NCBI GenBank assembly: GCA_963681505.1
Contig: OY811971.1
Location: 8,799,991 to 8,863,990 of the forward strand
Reading direction: 5' to 3'
Source of the DNA: Eunapius fragilis
Taxonomy: Eukaryota > Porifera > Demospongiae > Spongillida > Spongillidae
DNA length: 64,000 bases
Within the stretch, counting starts at the first letter, position 1. Each line of letters starts with the position of its first letter. The position numbers were made by a program, and so were the translations under genes. The notes below the pieces were generated by a model. The model was not told the DNA's origin and did not search any database. It saw only the letters and a list, made by a program, of their open reading frames with translations. Of the stretch, positions 780 to 23,660 are shown piece by piece.

Positions 780-2730
780 GGGAGAGATTGAACATGTAAC
801 ATATTATGGTCAACAATGACATGCTCGTTGATTTCAGTATTGGTATGAATTTAATTATCACTGCAATTACATGTAGTGGGTGTTGATTCATTATTGCCCA
901 CTAATTTCAATTGAAATTTGATGGGTATACCTTTTCTTTGTGCCTACCCATGTGCATTAATGCATAAGGGTGACTTGAAACCAAATAACCAAAATGTCTT
1001 AATATGCAACATTCACTACTCTGTCTTCATCATCTAATATGTACTATTGCACTTGTTCAAGTACTATAATTCATCCCCTGTTATCATGCTTCCTGGGATC
1101 AAGCATGTGATATTTATTGTATGCATGGACTCACATTTCCACATGCATGCATTTAAATGCAGAGAGGTTAGTTCATGTGTGATGGGCTCAGGACCTCTGA
1201 GCAAATAAATAGTTTCCATGGATCCTAATAATGGTCTGATACCATACAATGTTGCACCAGGCCTTGTACCATGCTATATGGGTGGCTTAATTACGTACCT
1301 AGCCCACTGTGGAAATTTTAAGACTGCGCCAATTAGGTACATGTACCTGCATTTTGTTTCCCGACTGTACACTTTGTCTATATATGTGATATTATTGCAG
1401 CGAATATGGCCCATATTTGTTTCCAAAATTTATGAGTTCTATGACAGCCACATCCTCTACAACTTCTTTCTAATTAGTCTATCCATCATGCAGTTAAAAT
1501 GGCCTGCTGAATTTTACATCTTATGCTCCTTTGTGGAAAATGTGCATCCTTTTCACTTGCATGATCAATGATCCCCATCTATTTATTAATGTGAAAGGAA
1601 GCCCTCAATATGTCCATGAAGGTGCCAATGATACTCTATTTTCAGTACATTTATCTGCCACATTTAATTACCTTTGTTCATCTGGAGGGTATAATATTAA
1701 CATACTTCTGTGGATACCACTGATCTGGTATGGAGACAGAATCAAGTACGTCGTATTTCGTGCTTTAATTGGGGATCCTTTTATGCTAGGAAGTGCCAAG
1801 ATATGATAATACTGTGTAATACTGGACCTTTGAATCATCTGGTTTTTAATGCATGAACATTGATACATGTACCAAAAAAATGCTCCTTGTATCTTAAACA
1901 CTATATTAAATCTCCGAACCATAAAGTTCATCAATAGAGAGAAATTAAATTTGTCGTCATAAATGCATGAATAGGTACAATAATGAAAAGCGGTGAGCAG
2001 TATCCCTTGTTTGTCAATTGCATGTTCTCTTTTCATCTGTGGAACAAAAACATTCCTCTCAACCTGCTGCCTGAGACCAAGCTATGAACAGATGCCACAA
2101 GCAACATCAAACTGACACCTGCTTCAACTATAATTACACATGGTCACATGCATATTTGCAGACAAGCAGGCAATGCACACAATCGATTAACTATACGTAC
2201 ATGTTTCAAATCATATTATTCTTTATGTCTCTGGTTAGCGCCATGAATGTCTAGAGAACAAATTGGAGCTGGTTCGGCTAGACTGACATATTTAAACGTC
2301 TGCAGCCACTTTGCATGGCTGTAGCACATTGCCCTCTCTATGCTCATCAATTATCCCACAAATCAGATGATGAGATTGCATGGTTAAAGCCACATTGATC
2401 ATCATTACGAAGCTGTATACAGATGCAAGTTCCACTTATATACATCTCTGGCAGTCTATTCTCTCTACTCGCTGTTATCTACATGGTTGTAACTGATATT
2501 ACTTGCTGCAAGCTATCTTATCTTCGTCAATTCCCACATCAATTATCCCACAAATAATGAGATAGCACATACATGCATTATAGATTTGGTTTATGTCACA
2601 TTATTGGCCGTTACAAAGCTGATACAAATGCAAGTTCCCCTTCATTTTGTAACTCTGGCTGTCTATTCTCTCACCCCACTCGCTATGTCTACATGGTTGG
2701 AACTGATATTACTTGTTGCAAGGTGTATTA
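780..2730. other. No supported gene
   Basis: AT-rich. About 2,330-2,500 and 2,520-2,710 are an imperfect direct repeat (caattatcccacaaat, gctgata.a.atgcaagttcc, ggctgtctattctctc), about 170 bp each. Confidence 0.5.
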
Positions 2731-2734
2731 GCAT

Positions 2735-3365
2735 CTAGGAAATTTGAGGGGGACAAGAAAATTTGTATAGACCCATTGTCTGGAAGTGTAGAGCTTGATG
2801 AGAGGAAATTATGAATCTGCATTTAATCTGACTGAAGAGAAAAAAGTAACGAGAGATTTAAAAAAGAGGGCATAGGGGTTCCACCCTACATTTTGTCGCA
2901 TTTTTCTGTCCTTTTTGCATGTTTTGCTTCCGATTCACATAGGAGTCACACTGATCAATTCCTTGCAGTGAAAGGCTCATCAGCACCCAAGCACATTCTG
3001 TAGACCCATTGCTATTAAAACGTAGAGCAATGAAATTAACGTTTTAACCCGGCCATTCCAGTAATACGTGTGGTTGGCTTAATTACCGGGTTAAAAGGTG
3101 TTTAAGGGTTTACAGATTGTTTTGGCAACTTTCTCTGCAAGAAATCAAATGTTGCGACTTGCACATGAATTTGAAAGATAGAAAATTGCAATAAAATGTA
3201 AGGGGCATATCTATGCCCTCTTTTAAAAATACTCCATTACTTTTTCTCTCAAGTCAGACATTTATTTTATAGAAGATTCATAATCCTCTCATCTAGCTAC
3301 ATTATTGGACGATGGGGTTCATACAGATTTTATTGCCCCCCCCCCCCCACCCCCCCAGGGGAATT
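2735..3365. mobile_element. Fold-back/MITE-like element with about 170-bp arms
   Basis: The left arm (gacaagaaaatttgtataga to gagggcataggggttcc) and right arm (ggggcatatctatgccctct to cagattttattgcccc) are reverse complements with indels. A small palindrome (ttttaacccgg / ccgggttaaaa) lies in the centre (3,044-3,095). The right end runs into C14. Confidence 0.7.
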
Positions 3366-3984
3366 AATAACATTTACATAACTAGTGTATGTTGAAATTT
3401 GTTTTCTACCAACAGATAGGCTTATTGTCTTCGTTAAGTTAAGGTGATAATATATTCATGCATTACACTTCCTCATTACAGTAAGCACCATAGGCTGATC
3501 AGTCACCTAATGTGTGACATAGCTCAGTTACCTCCTATGCAAATTTACATGCTAGTGTTTAGCAAAAGGAAATGCTTGCTCTGCTTATTTTGTAAATAAA
3601 CGTTACCCTGGAAATATAAAGTGAGGGAAATTAACGATGGATGAATGGGATAAGATATTTATGGAAATGATAGCAAGTTCGTAGAGTGCCACATTTAATA
3701 TTGCTTTTGTACATTTATGGAAATAATGGAATTAAAAATAACAACTATGGGATTAAAAATAAGACCTACTTTTTTTGCAAGCATATCAAATTTATCCTTG
3801 CCTTTGCTAAGGTTTGAAGGCTATGGTACAGTGGTCATGAAATAGGCTCTGCGATGTAATCAATTCTGTCATGACTCTCACATAAGTTTGAATTCTCACA
3901 GACAAGTTTGAAGTTCTTGTATGTTATCTGGCTCCGTACTTTTCAAAAGCATACACATGAAATTAAATATCTGTACACATATTC

Positions 3985-15304: not shown

Positions 15305-16107
15305 CAAATAATAATAATAATAATAATAATAATAATTTATTTGGTAAATTTACACCAAAAAGGCAAGTAATGGCATTAGGAAATGCACTTATAAACTGCC
15401 TAAACTATTTATAAGGGAATAGTTTACAAAAGGGGGTAAGGTCAACATGACTCAGATGAGCTTTAAATGCACAGACGGAGGATGCAGACACCACTGAGTT
15501 GGGCAAAGAGTTCCAAATTGGTATGACACGTTCTGAAAAAAAGTTTAGACGAAAATTATGATGTGGTAATGATCTGGACTTGAGCTTAAAGTGGTTACCT
15601 CTGGTAAAATGAACATGAGAGTTGATAACAAAGAAGTCAGATACATCGACATCAACAAGGTGAAACACTATCTTGTAACACATCACAAGGTCAAAGAATA
15701 CCCTGCGATATTCAAGAGATTGAAGATTTAAATTTCTTAGCCGAGTGCCATAATCCATATATGAAAGCTTAGCTCTTCTGCAAACAGCTCTAGTAAAGAA
15801 GCGTTGGACCTTTTCAATGGAATGAATGTCTTGATTATAAAAAAAATGGTGTGAGACAGTCAGGTAGGTCATTGATGTATATTAGAAAGAGTAGAGGACC
15901 TAGAACAGAGCCTTGAGGCACACCACTTATGACAGGAAGTAGAGTGGACTGAGATTCATGAATATATACACATTGAAACCGATCAGAGAGAAAAGAGGAT
16001 AACCAATCCAATAAATGAGAAGTAAATCCATACAATTTGGCTTTTAAAAGAAGCTTAGAATGAGAAACTGAATCAAAAACAGATTTCTTCGAAATCTGTC
16101 CACTATC
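15305..16107 (-). mobile_element. Non-LTR retrotransposon (LINE) fragment with internal deletion and (ATT)n tail
   Basis: Minus strand: [50 protein letters not shown] (RT motifs) down to about 15,850. It then jumps to the C-terminus HSIEKVQRFFTRAVCRR, PIWNSLPNSVVSASSVCAFK and a stop at 15,405. The YxDD-containing middle is missing. The 3' end runs into an (ATT)n repeat (15,307-15,336). Jockey/CR1-like by motif. 5'-truncated, inactive. Confidence 0.8.
15307..15336. repeat. (AAT)n microsatellite at LINE 3' end
   Basis: About ten aat units directly after the LINE tail, as is usual for CR1/L2/RTE-like 3' ends. Confidence 0.9.
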
Positions 16108-16217
16108 ACAAACTCTAACATCGGATGTGATTGTTGCAACTAAGGATCAGTTTGCCCGACATGGAATTCCAGTAGTGGTTCAGAGTGATGGAGGACCACA
16201 ATTCATGTCCCATGAAT
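16108..16217 (+). pseudogene. Integrase core fragment in inverted orientation
   Basis: The plus strand reads [20 protein letters not shown] and QSDGGPQFMSHELK, the second-Asp region of a gypsy integrase, opposite in strand to all flanking gypsy pieces. Confidence 0.75.
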
Positions 16218-16394: not shown

Positions 16395-17026
16395 CTATGA
16401 ATTCCAGGACTTGCGAGCATATGCTGGAACCTCAACTATTTTATTTGGCCACCCATTGCTAATGACCTTCTGGAGTTCTGTCTGTTTTGCATCCTTCTTT
16501 GCAGCCTCCTCTACTGCTGTCAGCCTCATGTAACTTATCGGGATGAAGTCTTGCTCAGAAATCACTTTCAATTCTCTGAACACAGCATCTTTTAATCCCA
16601 GATGAAAGACCTCATCTTTACAAGCCGTATCTTCTGGAGCAGCCTCGACAGGTGCTCTTGACAGGGTATCTGCCACCACTTGCTGTGAACCAGGAACATA
16701 CACCACATTTAAATCCTCTGTAGCTGCAGAAGCATCCGTTGGAGCTGTCTTGGAGCTGCTAGTAGTGACTTTTTGCTGATCACTACCAAAGGCTTTGTGG
16801 TCAGTTTTACTCTCTTATGTACTGATCAAATTTCTGACATGCAAAGACCACTGCCAAACAGTGCTACATAGTTACGTTCACTTTTGGTTAATGACCTGGA
16901 GACTGAGACAACCAGACGTCCTCCTTGTAAGAGTGTAGCCCCCAGACCTTCAGTGCTGGCATCGCATTGAAGTACAACCGGTTTCCGAACATCGTAGAAG
17001 GTCAAAAACTGTTCCTGGCTGATCAT
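16395..17026 (-). pseudogene. Ty3/Gypsy RNase H and connection
   Basis: LQCDASTEGLGATLLQGG (16,930-16,985) is the RNase H start. VYVPGSQQVVADTLSRAP (16,650-16,705) is its conserved end. A gap with frame changes lies between them (16,710-16,825). Confidence 0.75.
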
Positions 17027-17571
17027 GTCCTTGAGGTTATGGAAGGAAGCCCTTTCTGCCTCAGTCCACTGTAACTCTGCATTTCCTTCTGTAAGGCATC
17101 GGAGAGGTTTACTAGTAGTGGACAGAGCCGGGGCCTTTGTAGAAGCTTGACTAATCTCTTGTCATAGCTTATTCTAGCCTCTTTTTCCGTTGCCCCACTT
17201 CCATAGACCAGCACATCATCCGCTACGACTTCCACTCATCCAGCTCATGCAGTTCTGTCTGCAAAATTCTTCAGGTGCTTAAGACAACCCAAATGGTAGG
17301 TGCAACCACCTATACAGACCATTAGGACTCCAAAAGGTTTAAGATAACTACTCCTCTCAGTTAGCTTGACATGAAGGAAACCGTCCTTGGCATCTAACAA
17401 ACTGAAAATCTTTCAGCTTTTGCAGAACATTATCTGATTCTGCCTCACTGCCCTGTTTACAGTTGGACATTCTACTGGTGCCAAAACTCCACACTGTACC
17501 AATGATCTGATCTTCTCTTCAACTGCAGCTTTCATCATATGCAGGACTTTCCATGGTCGATTTTGGACCGG
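17023..17571 (-). pseudogene. Ty3/Gypsy reverse transcriptase, degraded
   Basis: The frame interrupted by Ginger1 resumes at 17,571. Recognisable parts are a VQNRPW-like RT start, a degraded LLDAKDGF-like strand near 17,390, and EVVADDVLVYG (YxDD box with Ala) at about 17,200-17,235. Frameshifts throughout. Confidence 0.65.
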
Positions 17572-17750
17572 TGTCGTATATATTGTCCCCCTGGACAGTA
17601 TAACCTAGGTTGCATTGTCCCCCTGACAATGTAACCTAGGGTATATTGTCCCCCACGGACAATGCACCCTAGGATATAATGTCCCCTCCCTGGTTATACT
17701 GTCCCCCCTACCCGGACAATACACTCTAGGGTACATTGTCCCCCAACATT
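17572..17750. repeat. Ginger1 left TIR with internal tandem motifs
   Basis: About 179 bp made of repeated attgtcccc and cctaggg.ta blocks. It is the inverted counterpart of 22,631-22,774. Confidence 0.85.
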
Positions 17751-17989
17751 AAAAAATCCCGATAGCACATTCCATTATTGTCCATATATATTACGTGTCA
17801 TGCATATATCGATTCAAACATAAGTAGAATGTACCTTGCCTCTCAACAGGACAGCGTATTCCAAAAGAAATGAAATTCAATGGGTGCATGAATTACACTG
17901 TAGGCATGCATGGTTAGAGACCATTGGATTGTTCATAATCGTATTAGTTAGTTGTGGAATAAATAAATTGACTTTGTAATGTCATGCTA

Positions 17990-18340
17990 AAATTGACTTC
18001 AGTACAGTACAATACATCAATTCCACTACATCATCCTTTTGACAGGTTCAAAATGATTATGCACATTGGTAATGTAGATACACTCTTCTTGATGTTTGTC
18101 GCTCTTTGCTTCATGTGGAGAATATTGCACCCACTCAGAAATCTTTCCAGTATAAGCAAACACACATATTGCTCATGGTAGTCTTGTGATCCAATGATGA
18201 TGAATGAAATGCACTGAAAAAAGCAATTTCCATCTGCAGATATTCTTCCAGTTCTAATGGGTTTTTGAGAAATCCCGATCATTTCATTATGTGCTGCACC
18301 ATGACGAGGGTTATTGCCATAATGAAAATTCAATCAAAAT
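17990..18340 (-). pseudogene. OTU-type cysteine protease domain in Ginger1
   Basis: The motif RISADGNCFFQCIS (18,220-18,265) matches the OTU catalytic DGNC, with SQDYHE after it. In a shifted frame the C-terminal histidine motif reads CIYITNVHNHFEPVKRM at about 18,025-18,080, as in OTU deubiquitinases. One frameshift near 18,150 separates the two. OTU enzymes remove ubiquitin. A role in protecting the transposase is speculation. Confidence 0.7.
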
Positions 18341-18545
18341 GAGTTACACCTGGAAATTTGCCTACCTCTACATACTGGGTTGTATGTGATTGCATCCATA
18401 CAGTATTTGAAATGTGAGGAATCAATGCAAGGATCAGTTAACATTGTCACTCTAAACTGCGCCTCATCACAGCACAAGCACCTTTTATCATGAACCCACT
18501 CACAGAATTCATCCAGATGTGTTGAAGACATATCGCCTTCCAAGC
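18334..18545 (-). pseudogene. Cys-rich segment before the OTU domain
   Basis: Open frame with HLDEFCEWVHDKRCLCC and CIDSSHFKYCMDA. Cys/His spacing suggests a zinc-binding module. Its end has a donor-like or frame change before the OTU exon. Unassigned. Confidence 0.4.
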
Positions 18546-18879
18546 AATTGAACTCTGCATAGAATTACATTACTTGCAAGCTCTACACCAAACTTGAAGC
18601 AGTTCCACAGCTTCAACAATGCTGTATTCTTTATCCACATGTGCATACACTTTGCTTCTAAACTTATCAAACTCCTCGTGCAATTCTTCACTAACGATCA
18701 CAAAGTCACCTCCTGAAACATCTCTCAGTGGAGTACTACCATTCAATTTGTACTCTAGCCATAAGCAACCTTGCTCAATGCATATTCACCCTCCTTCAGC
18801 CTCAATGATATTTCCTGTGTGAAATTGTATATATAATTCAACTGCATGCAATTTGTATTCATTGACACTTACATCAAAT

Positions 18880-19970
18880 TCATTGACCACTTACATCAAA
18901 TTCTTCATCATCTTCTGCAGCTTTGTAATGAAGTACACTAGCTCCTGCCCTCCATAAATGCATAAGGTGAGAAGAATGAAGTTGTTCCAAAAGTATGCCG
19001 CAGTCTATTTCTTTCATTTGAAGCACACCTGAGCATTCTGTTTCATTATCATCGCAAGAAACAGGAACCTGAATAATGTTTGATGGACAGCCGGAAGCTG
19101 AAGATATAGTTGAACTCATCACTTTTGACAAATGTGATGAGGACTGATGAGAACTCTTAGGTAAGGACTGATTGTTGACAGTTGACTGGATTGCTGTGGT
19201 GTAGACTGACTGGAGTGAATGGGCGAAGGTTGACTGGAATGCTGTGCCGTGTTGTAGAAATCATTTGTTACCTTTTTCTTTGACAAAGGACGCACTACAC
19301 CCTCCTTTATTCCATGACCTTGTATGTCTGCGCTTGAGTCTGCTAGATGGGCAAACGTTTCTGGTATGTCTCCCATTGCATCCTTATCTTTTCCATGTCT
19401 GAGCTTATATCAGCTGATTTTCCTTTGCAGGTTAACCTATTGGCAATTCTGGAAGTCTTGTGTCCGCTCTTGTGCACAAATCTTTGTTGGTTGTACAATT
19501 TAAGCCTGTTAACATTGATTGTTTTCTTGAGGTTTGATTTAGTCTTAGGATTGAAGAGCACATATCTTCCTTTTCCAAGAGATTCAGCTACTTTGTATGG
19601 TGGGCCAAGCCATCTCTGTTGCAGCTTGCCACCTTTTCTACCATCTTTTTGAGAGTTGCATAACAGGACCAGCTGTTCAACTTGAATCTTTTGAAAAGGA
19701 TAAAACATGCTAACCGCAACAATATAAGACGCTGAGTAAAATGCAGCTTACTTTGCCTTTCTTTAATGTCATAAATTCGTTTGTAGCATTCCTGTGCCTT
19801 GTCAATGTTTATTTTTGCTGAATCAAACAATTGTTGCTGAATTTGTTCCATTCTAGCAATCATTTCCTCCGGTTTCGGGGATCCTTCTACCATTTCTTTA
19901 ACTTCATTGCTGCTGCTCTTACTTTCTGAATTTATTTCATCCTCAATAGGGAGAACTGCTTTCCTAAATG
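18880..19970 (-). pseudogene. Ginger1 C-terminal part with GPY/F-like domain
   Basis: A charged helical stretch (EEMIARMEQIQQQLF, AQECYKRIYDIKERQ) at 19,745-19,970 is followed by LQQRWLGPPYKVAESLGKG and RYVLFNPKTK at about 19,530-19,620, a GPY/F-type module of integrases. Downstream are Ser/Gln-rich and acidic segments (HSSQPSPIHSSQST; EDDEEFDV) without assignment. Confidence 0.65.
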
Positions 19971-20023
19971 AGTAAAATAATCTTGTCACAGTGATTGCTT
20001 ATCGCCCACTTAAATCTACATAC

Positions 20024-20316
20024 CTGCAGAACATTAGCTCGAACGGCGTAACACCAGTTGATTTGTGTACTGATGTTCGATAGGCAAACAGCACCCCGTC
20101 ATAAAAAATATGTCCCAATCATTCTGTTTGCCACTAACAAGTTTTAGCAATGATCGCTGAAGTGTCTGGTTGTATCGCTCCACCAAGCCATTGCATTGAG
20201 GGTGATAGGCAGATGTCACCTTGTGCTTGATTCCTGTTAGATGAAACAGGGTCTGATTTGTGCTGTTAACAAATTCCCTCCCTTGATCACTAAGGATTGA
20301 TTTGGTAGCTCCATAT
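20024..20316 (-). pseudogene. Ginger1 integrase core exon 2 (second Asp and Glu)
   Basis: After TATGCAG: ATKSILSDQGREFVNS (Asp), then SAYHPQCNGLVERYNQTL (Glu), which completes the DDE triad. A one-base loss in a T run near 20,108 shifts the frame before the exon end at TGCAG|GTATGT. Confidence 0.8.
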
Positions 20317-20319
20317 CTG

Positions 20320-21165
20320 CATAAAAATGGGATAAAATTGTATAAAAATAATTGCCATGCATTGTACCTTGTTACCAAGGCAACTGTGATTTGTTTAGGA
20401 CCTCTGAACTCTGTGGTCCTTGGTAAGTGTAAAAGTAACTGTTTCATGTGTTTAAAATGTAATCTAATCTAAACATCAGTACCTTCACACTCGTTATGTA
20501 CCACTTACATTGTGCACATTTTTATAGCACAATATACAGGGTGTTCCGCAATCAAGAAAAATTCGTTTTTAAATAAATTAAAAATCATAACTAAGATTAA
20601 TTTACTCATTTATGTTATAATAACTTTGAAAATTTTATGAGAGTAAAAAATCGTATTTTATAGGTGAAAATTGCTCAATCACAAGCATATTAAGTTAAAT
20701 CAAGCTATTTGATATTTAAATTCAAACGAACAGATGACTACCCATATTCTAGTTATAATAACTAATGACAAGGTGATTATTTGGCTTGATGTGTGACCTA
20801 AAGTTAAATAACGTATTCTACGGCGGAGTTATTAAGAGTCAAACTTTTGATTTTCGGGCACTTGATTATGAGTAGTTAGTTACATGTACATATTTTTCTG
20901 TTGAACCATTAGTGTAAACATGCATTAAATATGATCAGCATTTGTCCCTATTGAAACTGGTTATTTTTAATCAATACCCACTAATGTAATTACATGGAAT
21001 GTGTTGAATTTTTATCGATTTCTCCTTGCCCTGTACTTTTAAGCCACTGATAAACAATGCTACCAAATTACACAGCTTACCTAATAACAAGGCAAACAAA
21101 AATAGATCAGTAACATATCATCTTACTTCTTTCACACAAGCATGTAAATATTATATTACATTGTA
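20320..21165. other. Intron of the Ginger1 transposase
   Basis: Lies between the two integrase core exons. At 20,538 a cagggtgttccgcaatcaag word resembles a mariner-type end, but no inverted partner was found. Confidence 0.4.
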
Positions 21166-21166
21166 C

Positions 21167-21324
21167 CTGCAAATCATCATGTAAAGGAAAGTGGCTACAC
21201 CGTATGATGTCTTGTCCTTCAAAGGCTCAGCCTCTGGCCATTTTGAAAAGTAATCCATCAGAGTTATTATATACTTGTTGCCCAACGAAGTTTTGGGAAG
21301 GGGGCCAATCAGGTCAATACCCAG
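21167..21324 (-). pseudogene. Ginger1 integrase core exon 1 (first Asp)
   Basis: A 158-bp exon after TTACAG with LGIDLIGPLPKTSLGNKYI and MDYFSKWPEA, which provides the first catalytic Asp. It ends CAG|GTACAA in phase 2, matching the next exon. Confidence 0.8.
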
Positions 21325-21806
21325 CTGTAATAAAACATATCATAGTTTCTGAAATATTCTTTTTAGTGAATTTTGTGGGTGAAATAAAAAAAATACCTTC
21401 AAATTATGAGGATTCAAAAGGTAAGCATAACACTGAGCCATTTCAATAGCTTTATGTACCACATTTTTGTATAGATTTTGCGTACATGATTGAATAAATT
21501 TTTGGCAACACAACATTTCATGGTGCATCAAAGGGTGAGGATTGTTTTAAAATCATCTTTATTATTCTGAATAGCATAGCATGTATTTACAAGAATAGGT
21601 GGATGAGTGTGAGTAATACATAGCCATGGATGTGTGAGATATGATTCAAATTTATCATGCCATTGGGGACTACTAAGTATTATATAAGATAATACACGAG
21701 ATATAATTGAAGTCTACAATCAGCTTTACTTATTGAAATGACATTTTAGGGAACGAGGAGAGAAAGAAACACATCCATGCAGATGCATGGTTGAAACACA
21801 ACCTAC

Positions 21807-21994
21807 CAGATTCCAGACTTTAGATTCCACTGCAATAGGATGGAGAGCAGCATCAATTTTTGCAAATTTGGTGTCATTTGCTCGCTGGTATTTGTCACAA
21901 GATTCCACGAACTCTCGTATATTGTCGTACATGTCTTCCCAGAAAAATATTGAGGTAAATGTCTCAAGAGTTCTGTCCCTCCCAAAACGTCCTC
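21807..21994 (-). pseudogene. Ginger1 integrase zinc-binding exon
   Basis: A 188-bp exon after CTTTAG: GRFGRDRTLETF, FWEDMYDNIREFV, ESCDKYQRAND, LHPIAVESKVWNL. The expected second Cys of the CxxC pair is Tyr in CDKYQ, which would weaken zinc binding. The donor CTG|GTAGGT is phase 0 to the next exon. Confidence 0.75.
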
Positions 21995-22210
21995 CTAAAG
22001 TTACCAAGCACATAATCATCAGCAGCTCGGTTTGAAATTTTGGGGAACTATGAACATAGTTATGCTAACTTGCAGCATGCACTATATACATGTAGTTACA
22101 ACTTAAGATTAACCATATAATGTACTCAAAAACCAAACATTGACTATAGCTTATATTGTGAAAAAGAGTTTCTCTGTGTTTACTAGTCCTTTTGTACTTA
22201 CAATGCGTAC

Positions 22211-22449
22211 CTTCAGCAGATGCATGACAGCTTTTCATGATGCGATGGCGCTCATCCTCTGTTGGTATAACCCTTCTCCATCGCCGTTCTTTGGTCAAAA
22301 TCAAAGAGACAGAATAATGAAGAACGCTCTGCAGATTTAACTTGAAAGTTAAGCTTCGCTTTCCTTAATGAAAGCTTTTGGTCTTTGGAATATCCTACTG
22401 GATAACTACCATAGTTCAAGAATTCCTGAATAGCCTTATAGTCAACCAT
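22211..22449 (-). pseudogene. Ginger1 transposase N-terminal exon
   Basis: A Met-started frame at 22,449 (MVDYKAIQEFLNYGSYP) has a frame break near 22,300. The coding continues as WRRVIPTEDERHRIMKSCHA, the start of the HHCC zinc-binding region of gypsy-like integrases, to a donor AAG|GTACGC at 22,211. Confidence 0.65.
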
Positions 22450-22630
22450 TTCTCTACACGAGGCTGGAGTTTAAATTTTTGGGATCACGTGCATGTTAAC
22501 CATTTCTATTTTATAGCGGTTTGTAATGTGGTTTATTTATATACCGCTATACATGAACGATCACTGGAAATTGGCTACAAATAGACCTTATCTTATTTTA
22601 GCGATTGTCGACCGTAGCAGATGTTATAAA

Positions 22631-22774
22631 TGTTGGGGAGGGGGGGGGGGACAATGTACCCTAGAGTGTATTGTCCGGGTAGGGGGGACAATATAACCAG
22701 GGAGGGGACATTATATCCCAGGGTTTATTGTCCGGGGGGACACTTTTTCCAGGGGGACAATATATCCTCCGACA
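22631..22774. repeat. Ginger1 right TIR
   Basis: About 144 bp, starting tgttggggagg and ending cctccgaca. It has fewer internal repeat blocks than the left TIR. Confidence 0.85.
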
Positions 22775-23660
22775 CCGGTGGTACTGCACTGTCCAATTTG
22801 ATATCATATTCCCCGGGCAGACACCCGGTGCCGCTGAAAAGATCTGAGTACTCCTCGCAAATTCTTGAACATGTGAGATCCTGATCTGAGTGTACAATGC
22901 ATACCTCCTCCTTGTTGTACTTGACATGAGTAGTCCCAACTCCAAACTGATGTCCAAAGACAGCAGCGAGTGATGCTTGGTGTCCAGAACTTCAAACTCC
23001 AACTGTGAGATAGTTTCAGCTGCCAACTGCAGAGCAAACTTTCCCATCGGCCTTCGCACTGAGCCATCATACATGGTTAGCGTAGTACCGCTGTGTTCCA
23101 GCCGTGGTTTTCCCAATTGCAAGTAGTCTCTATGGGATAGCACATTACATGTTGCTGCTGAATCTAATTGGCATGTGAGCTCCACTGACAATCGTTTTAC
23201 CCCTGAAAGAGATAGCACTGCCAACAGCTTCCTCCCTCTCTTTTCCACCTGGATAAAAAGACACTCTTCTTCCTCTCTACCGCTCTCCACCATTTGCGTT
23301 ACATTTTGCTGAGACGAACACTGTTTTGAAAAATGGTTCAAGCCTCTACATTTCCGACACACTTGACCAATGCCGGGCATTGTCATACTTATGAACTTTC
23401 CCACACTTGGAACATCCTTTACCCTTTGGATTCTTTCTGACACATGACTCTTGCAACCTCAAACCCATAGCTGCTCCATTTCTACTAGATGAACCTTGAT
23501 CATTTGGTGCCCGGCTAAAATGAAGATGTATCCACCATCACCATAGTTTATTAGAATATAATATGTTCTGGTGTAATCTAAGTATCCCATCAGCTTCCTG
23601 CCTGTTGTAATGAGGCTCCTCGCCATCGCTATAATCACTGTCCAGGTCACCAATGCGCCT
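22775..23660 (-). pseudogene. Ty3/Gypsy gag end and aspartic protease
   Basis: The minus frame from 23,443 contains a zinc knuckle (CRKCRGLNHFSKQC), then a protease-like active site CQLDSAATCNVLS (Ser replaces the usual Thr in DTG-like context), and a typical linker (VLDTKHHSLLSLDISLELGL). It continues toward reverse transcriptase until cut by the Ginger1 TIR at 22,774. Gag upstream of 23,443 is degraded. Confidence 0.7.

Follow-up and report, generated by a model that had tools for sequence, protein, structure and literature searches.

DNA transposons of the Ginger1 type that carry an OTU-type protease at the C-terminus are a known class, published since 2010. In the available parts of the original description (Bao et al., 2010; PMC2836005), this class includes Ginger1-1_HM, Ginger1-2_HM, Ginger1-3_HM, Ginger1-11_HM, Ginger1-1_AC, Ginger1-1_AP, and Ginger1-2_AP. 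An element located at positions 17572 to 22774 of a 64,000-nucleotide stretch of the Eunapius fragilis genome (contig OY811971.1, positions 8,799,991 to 8,863,990; hereafter the window) shares with these elements the TGTNR ends, 4-bp duplications of CCGG/CCGT, terminal inverted repeats (TIRs) in the range of 40-270 bp, the order of YPYY motif, H2C2 domain, DDE integrase, GPY module, and OTU domain, and introns in the transposase gene. It differs from them in that its integrase is of the Ulp1-type lineage and in that the copy is inactivated. The family of the window element is very probably a chimera, in which a Ginger1 of the Ulp1 lineage bears an OTU tail from a distant OTU-type Ginger1, and the window holds an inactivated copy of it in a Gypsy element. 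The initial annotation, made from the sequence alone, had read the element as an OTU-bearing Ginger1, a family member rather than a new class. The published elements agree with this membership and the Ginger1 features tested were present, but integrase trees placed the element among Ulp1-type elements, and the annotation missed that the copy is wrecked, with a partly deleted OTU domain.

Helitrons with OTU and/or VTD domains, and also herpesviruses, have been described as cases in which a deubiquitinase of one class takes the place of another class, and it was suggested that different classes can provide the deubiquitinase activity. For VTD domains of Helitrons this activity was measured, and transposon OTU domains were said to be untested (PMC9741609, available parts). 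The present case differs in its transposition enzyme and in that OTU is set against Ulp1 in neighboring families of one genome. For Ginger1, Bao et al. (2010) proposed a link between the protease tail and repair, and the available parts of their paper left open why a transposase should bear a deubiquitinase or deSUMOylase. In the literature searched, which leaves out most subscription journals, Ginger1 and Ulp1 occurred together in one paper (PMC2836005), whose OTU and Ulp1 passages are silent on exchange, and neither chimeric ancestry nor repeated OTU/Ulp1 exchange was found in the available texts. The terms OTU, ubiquitin, protease, and Ulp1 were each without occurrence in the Imagin paper (PMC12863088).

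A sister family (L009 to L014) in the same genome has the architecture of Ginger1-9_HM, which carries Ulp1 and a PHD finger (PMC2836005, available parts). The L009 gene is intact, consisting of seven exons with GT-AG borders and encoding 1,135 amino acids, and L010 and L011 have the same exon sequences; the six introns of L009 compare with 0-4 in the published Ginger1 table of the same paper. The tail scored 34.4 bits for the PHD finger and 20.5 bits for Peptidase_C48 (Ulp1; cut-off, 20.7). In contrast to Ginger1-9_HM as described, the L009-type elements share TIRs and approximately 80-82% of the amino acid residues of the DDE exon with an OTU-type family, namely that of the window element. 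The TIR ends of L009 and the window element were 85% identical across 178 bp and 98% identical in the last 49 bp, and the ratio of nonsynonymous to synonymous divergence (dN/dS) between the DDE exons of L009 and L025, another copy of the window family, was 0.10.

The homology partner changes twice along the window element, after the GPY module and after the stop codon. The 5' junction lies within 19012-19489, with L009-like sequence upstream and a linker plus OTU domain resembling those of another family (family A) downstream; in the S/Q-rich linker, weak matches to family A begin already at 19218. The 3' junction lies within 17757-18031, past the stop codon and before the L009-like 3' end. 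L025, another copy that is bounded by TIRs and has a CCGG duplication of its own, showed the same arrangement, and the chimeric family further includes L023, L026, and others. On this pattern, the Ulp1 lineage would have contributed the TIRs, the YPYY, H2C2, DDE, and GPY parts, and the last ~180 bp, and its Ulp1(+PHD) tail, from the end of the GPY module to past the stop codon, would have been replaced by the linker plus OTU.

Trees of the integrase and of the OTU domain were in conflict. For the same-genome DDE tree, 42 sequences were used, of which L080 and L085 had no DDE match and L092 and L093 were too gappy, resulting in 38 rows and 96 columns. The OTU-type rows (window element, L025, and L073) formed one strong clade with the Ulp1-type rows L009, L014, and L072 (98/94, starred), and this clade sat among further Ulp1-type rows (89/90 and 94/89, unstarred). 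A single OTU clade was rejected (p-AU 1e-47), with four changes of the OTU label. The cross-record tree contained 31 proteins from other records (from 120 listed of 787 matches) together with L009, the window element, and L025 (34 rows, 427 columns). The window element and L025 (100/98, starred) were joined by L009 (100/100, starred) and stood beside the Ulp1-bearing P0005 and P0002 (96/96, starred); one OTU clade was again rejected (p-AU 8e-41), also with four changes of the OTU label. The OTU tree, with 36 rows and 126 columns, grouped the window family with family A (L035 to L038) and L044 (100/99, starred). The integrase rows of family A (L079, L081, and L082) were placed far from the window family on the same-genome tree, with a further family, B (99/96, starred). 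Simple vertical descent of an OTU-bearing Ginger1, with one history for tail and integrase, would account for an architecture, termini, and target site like those of the published elements; it is rendered very improbable by the rejection of one OTU clade on both integrase trees and by an OTU tree in which the closest relatives of the window family include a family with a distant integrase.

The neighboring positions of the window family and L009 would also be expected if their ancestor had carried OTU and L009 had gained Ulp1 and PHD, and the ancestral state can be read from outgroups alone. The next rows out were of Ulp1 type (L059 and L060, followed by L061 to L064 and L078; across records, P0002 and P0005), and the best long matches of the L009 Ulp1 among those listed, its own copies aside, adjoin the integrases L064, L063, and L078 (60%). 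Both observations speak against a swap in this direction, which we consider unlikely. An ancestral Ginger1 with both proteases, followed by differential loss by lineage, would explain why elements with OTU and elements with Ulp1 are intermixed in the integrase trees. However, no element with both proteases was present among the matches listed, and loss alone fails to predict an OTU that, contrary to the integrase tree, has family A as its closest relative. Among those matches, a single place, L102, had both proteases within 4 kb on the same strand; it was rejected as a dual-protease element, being two tandem elements, each with its own integrase. A dual-protease ancestor thus appears hardly credible, and replacement of a Ulp1 tail by an OTU tail is the preferred explanation.

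The OTU domain has been under purifying selection between families: dN/dS between L029, a member of the window family, and family A was 0.16 (L029/L036) and 0.29 (L029/L035), values that are rough because dS was near 1, with two of the nine OTU pairs saturated. These low ratios therefore indicate that OTU was constrained while passing between families. The roughness of the ratios is one of several points that weigh against a chimeric origin. The only intact OTU frame is that of L029, which is without DDE; an intact full-length OTU copy of the window family was not found, all copies read having lesions. The OTU and Ulp1 labels in the genome were assigned by eye from position on the same strand within ~4 kb (~6.7 kb for L073), drawing on the best 150 matches for each protease. 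The group of three OTU rows was weak in the same-genome tree (82/56), which had only 96 columns. In the cross-record tree, P0075, in which a Ulp1 model is present, was counted as having no protease as the BLAST label missed it, and one listed OTU protein, P0029, was not included. No outgroup was used for the OTU tree.

On the basis of established knowledge about integrases, a multimeric DDE transposase would be expected to move the window family by cut-and-paste at CCGG with a 4-bp stagger, the TIR repeats serving as its putative binding sites. The probable targets of the protease tail are ubiquitin or SUMO in the vicinity of the transposition complex, and the OTU domain is predicted to be an active ubiquitin isopeptidase. 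Candidate roles are to prevent ubiquitin/SUMO-linked turnover of the transposase or of the integration complex, or to make repair easier. OTU and Ulp1 appear to replace each other, and isopeptidase activity therefore seems to be what counts; selection may keep some isopeptidase in cis with the transposase, which would make the two exchangeable. Tail exchange probably occurred through recombination between co-resident Ginger1 families. On balance, we favor the broader view that the isopeptidase tail of Ginger1 (OTU, of deubiquitinase type, or Ulp1, of deSUMOylase type) is an exchangeable cassette that has been swapped several times, one swap being recent enough for donor-like, recipient-like, and chimeric families to coexist in one sponge genome. 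Selection would then maintain a ubiquitin-like isopeptidase attached to the integrase, presumably to counter a ubiquitin/SUMO response of the host to integration. The OTU/Ulp1 pair suggests selection on activity, not on fold, and neighboring families with similar ends and integrases and different proteases constitute a natural experiment on whether the tails act on the same step.

At L102 (C23:4202863/4206320), an OTU-type and a Ulp1-PHD-type Ginger1 lie in tandem on one strand with ~0.5 kb between their coding parts. This is a layout from which recombination could yield a tail exchange.

The window element is 5,203 bp long, with its gene on the minus strand. It starts with TGTCG at 17572 and ends with CGACA at 22774, so that both termini carry the TGTNR ends that had been claimed, and it is bordered by the CCGG duplications at 17568-17571 and 22775-22778. 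The left TIR (17572-17745, on the 3' side of the gene) and the right TIR (22646-22774, on the 5' side) are imperfect inverted repeats composed of repeated GGACAAT...ATTGTCC palindromic units, in line with the long repetitive TIRs noted initially. Within them, a 94-nt arm (17651-17744 with 22646-22739) was 95% complementary and an 18-nt segment near the termini (17578-17595 with 22748-22765) was 100% complementary, within the Ginger1 range of about 40-270 bp. The TIR alignment scored 88.5, compared with 8-11.5 across 20 shuffles, and the two TIR stretches together contain 11 occurrences of GGACAAT/ATTGTCC, compared with a mean of 0.04 and a maximum of 1 in 1,000 shuffles.

The same TIRs recur in the genome. 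When the 219-Mb genome was searched with the left TIR, 40 of 61 candidates were scored, and at least 64 matches were obtained, a single copy giving several. All 11 two-ended copies, including the window element, had matching 4-bp duplications, their ends having been found by pattern: CCGG in eight, ACGG/CCGT in two, and CCGC in one. Ten of the 11 thus fit the Ginger1 target, with CCGG the common one, as the initial annotation had suspected; for Hydra Ginger1, 75% CCGG and 24% CCGT/ACGG were published (PMC2836005, available parts). The count excludes L024, whose two ends fail to pair (CTGG and CCGT), and further loci with one end only. L009, L010, and L011 were 99.9% identical to one another across 5.2 kb in different flanks, and the sister family therefore moved recently. 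The window copy was 87% identical to L025 along 3.3 kb, and the DDE dN/dS between the two was 0.82 (70 codons), a value to be expected for dead copies.

The element is inserted in the pol gene of a Gypsy retrotransposon, as had been proposed. The host gene, also on the minus strand, is represented by its RNase H part at 16829-17161 (RT_RNaseH_2, 59.8 bits) and by a part from the zinc knuckle to the start of the reverse transcriptase at 22779-23458 (zf-CCHC, 18.2 bits, under the cut-off of 20.8). Both flanks adjoin at C5:5229149-5230639, the side-by-side match besides the window itself, with the junction at 5230127/5230128; for the left flank, many weaker matches were present elsewhere. The joined window flanks aligned to this relative with no gap at the insertion point, where the relative has a single target, CAGG in place of the CCGG of the window. 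The joined frame crosses the target site, giving a stop-free translation, ...YDIKLDSAVPPVQNRPWKVL... The empty-site relative, the gapless join, the in-frame readthrough, and the RNase H and zinc knuckle flanks together make the insertion within the Gypsy pol gene secure; the CCGG site lies in the reverse transcriptase part of the Gypsy element.

Gypsy pol was found in or beside five of the 21 insertion sites, namely those of the window element, L009, L011, L014, and L023, and in none of 20 stretches of 900 bp chosen at random on 18 of the 24 contigs (Fisher p 0.048); the cases of the window, L009, L011, and L014 were known beforehand. A match at L012 was discarded as its query piece included TIR sequence, and L016 was omitted as a duplicate of L018. 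CCGG occurred 2, 7, and 1 times in three Gypsy pieces (10 in 4.7 kb), and random DNA had 15 in 18 kb. The supply of CCGG may thus account for the excess in Gypsy, and a strong target preference was rejected.

The gene parts of the window copy, all on the minus strand, were located by motifs and by a Pfam profile search of eight frames. The remnant of exon 1 (22203-22449) is frameshifted and contains the YPYY-type motif GSYPVGYS (22387-22410), of which L009 has an intact version. The H2C2 exon (21801-21995) scored 37.8 bits for Integrase_H2C2 (PF17921; cut-off, 25.5). The three catalytic residues are spread over more than one exon, in agreement with the spliced DDE integrase claimed initially. 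The first Asp is in GIDLIGPLP (21295-21321) within 21163-21327; the second Asp, in LSDQGREFV (20268-20294), and the Glu, in NGLVERYNQ (20166-20192), are within 19714-20348, which has a frameshift near 20106-20109. One DDE exon scored below the cut-offs for rve_3 (26.0 versus 26.5 bits) and rve (22.4 versus 32.6 bits); its assignment as a Gypsy-type DDE integrase follows the three motifs and the placement on the integrase trees. The GPY/F module (19490-19687) had 70-71% amino acid identity to that of L009. It contains RWLGPPYKV (19589-19615), one residue longer than the corresponding motif of L009, and the GPY/F-like domain of the initial annotation thus stands by motif, its SH3_Tf2-1 score of 22.5 bits being below the cut-off of 30.

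The C-terminal region (18154-18531) extends to the OTU Cys motif SADGNCFF (18217-18240), and the His motif HNHFEPV (18041-18061) is in a part (18032-18169) read in another frame. The OTU motif pair that had been reported, DGNC and HFEPV, is thus present, but the two motifs are in different frames and 119-183 bp between them are gone, a stretch kept in all 12 other aligned copies (178 bp in L025, 183 bp in L023). In the profile check that the initial annotation had proposed, the window segment at 18.0-18.34 kb had no match to the OTU profile PF02338, its sole match being Peptidase_C65 (E 0.039). In contrast, the relatives L029 and L036 each scored 36.8 bits for PF02338 (cut-off, 23.3), in a match that stops before the His motif, and L036 matched solved OTU domains (5jze, E 1.7e-4; OTUD1 4bop, E 0.0015). 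Given the frameshifts in exon 1, DDE, and OTU and the partial deletion of OTU, the window copy is inactivated and unable to make the protein.

The stretch 20500-21130, between two integrase exons, was considered as a further nested insertion and rejected, as it was found at 84% identity in L025 and at 88% at C5:6824929 beside L073; approximately 100 bp within it recurs more widely in the genome. In the host Gypsy, a reverse transcriptase fragment at 15408-16146 on the minus strand (RVT_1, 36.8 bits), of non-long terminal repeat type by its look, separates the RNase H/H2C2 region from later parts of this Gypsy and is likely another nested insertion.

Among the family members, L029 contains a 338-amino-acid open frame at 919-1932, in which a YPYY exon is fused to OTU with no DDE, apparently through an internal deletion. 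L015 to L021 are non-autonomous derivatives of ~1.5-1.7 kb that keep the decayed OTU end of the gene, several of them with one common internal deletion. They were rejected as OTU-only mobile genes, since the frames were broken in all five OTUs read (L015, L018, L019, L020, and L021), and look like passive non-autonomous copies. In the sister family, the linker exon of L009 (nt 2325-3876 of the element) contains repeated segments, through which changes in length may have arisen; L014 exceeds L009 in length by 118 bp. Beyond these families, matches to the Ginger1 OTU piece were scored at no fewer than 150 places in the genome (best 150 of 375 candidates), and L056, among the matches listed, has a 1,983-amino-acid frame holding one stop. 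The 96-residue DDE exon of L068 was contained letter for letter in P0013 (source name Em0003g1660a, read as Ephydatia muelleri), which pointed to E. muelleri or a near relative as the probable source of the window, and the best named matches were from sponges (Oopsacas, Ephydatia, and Amphimedon).

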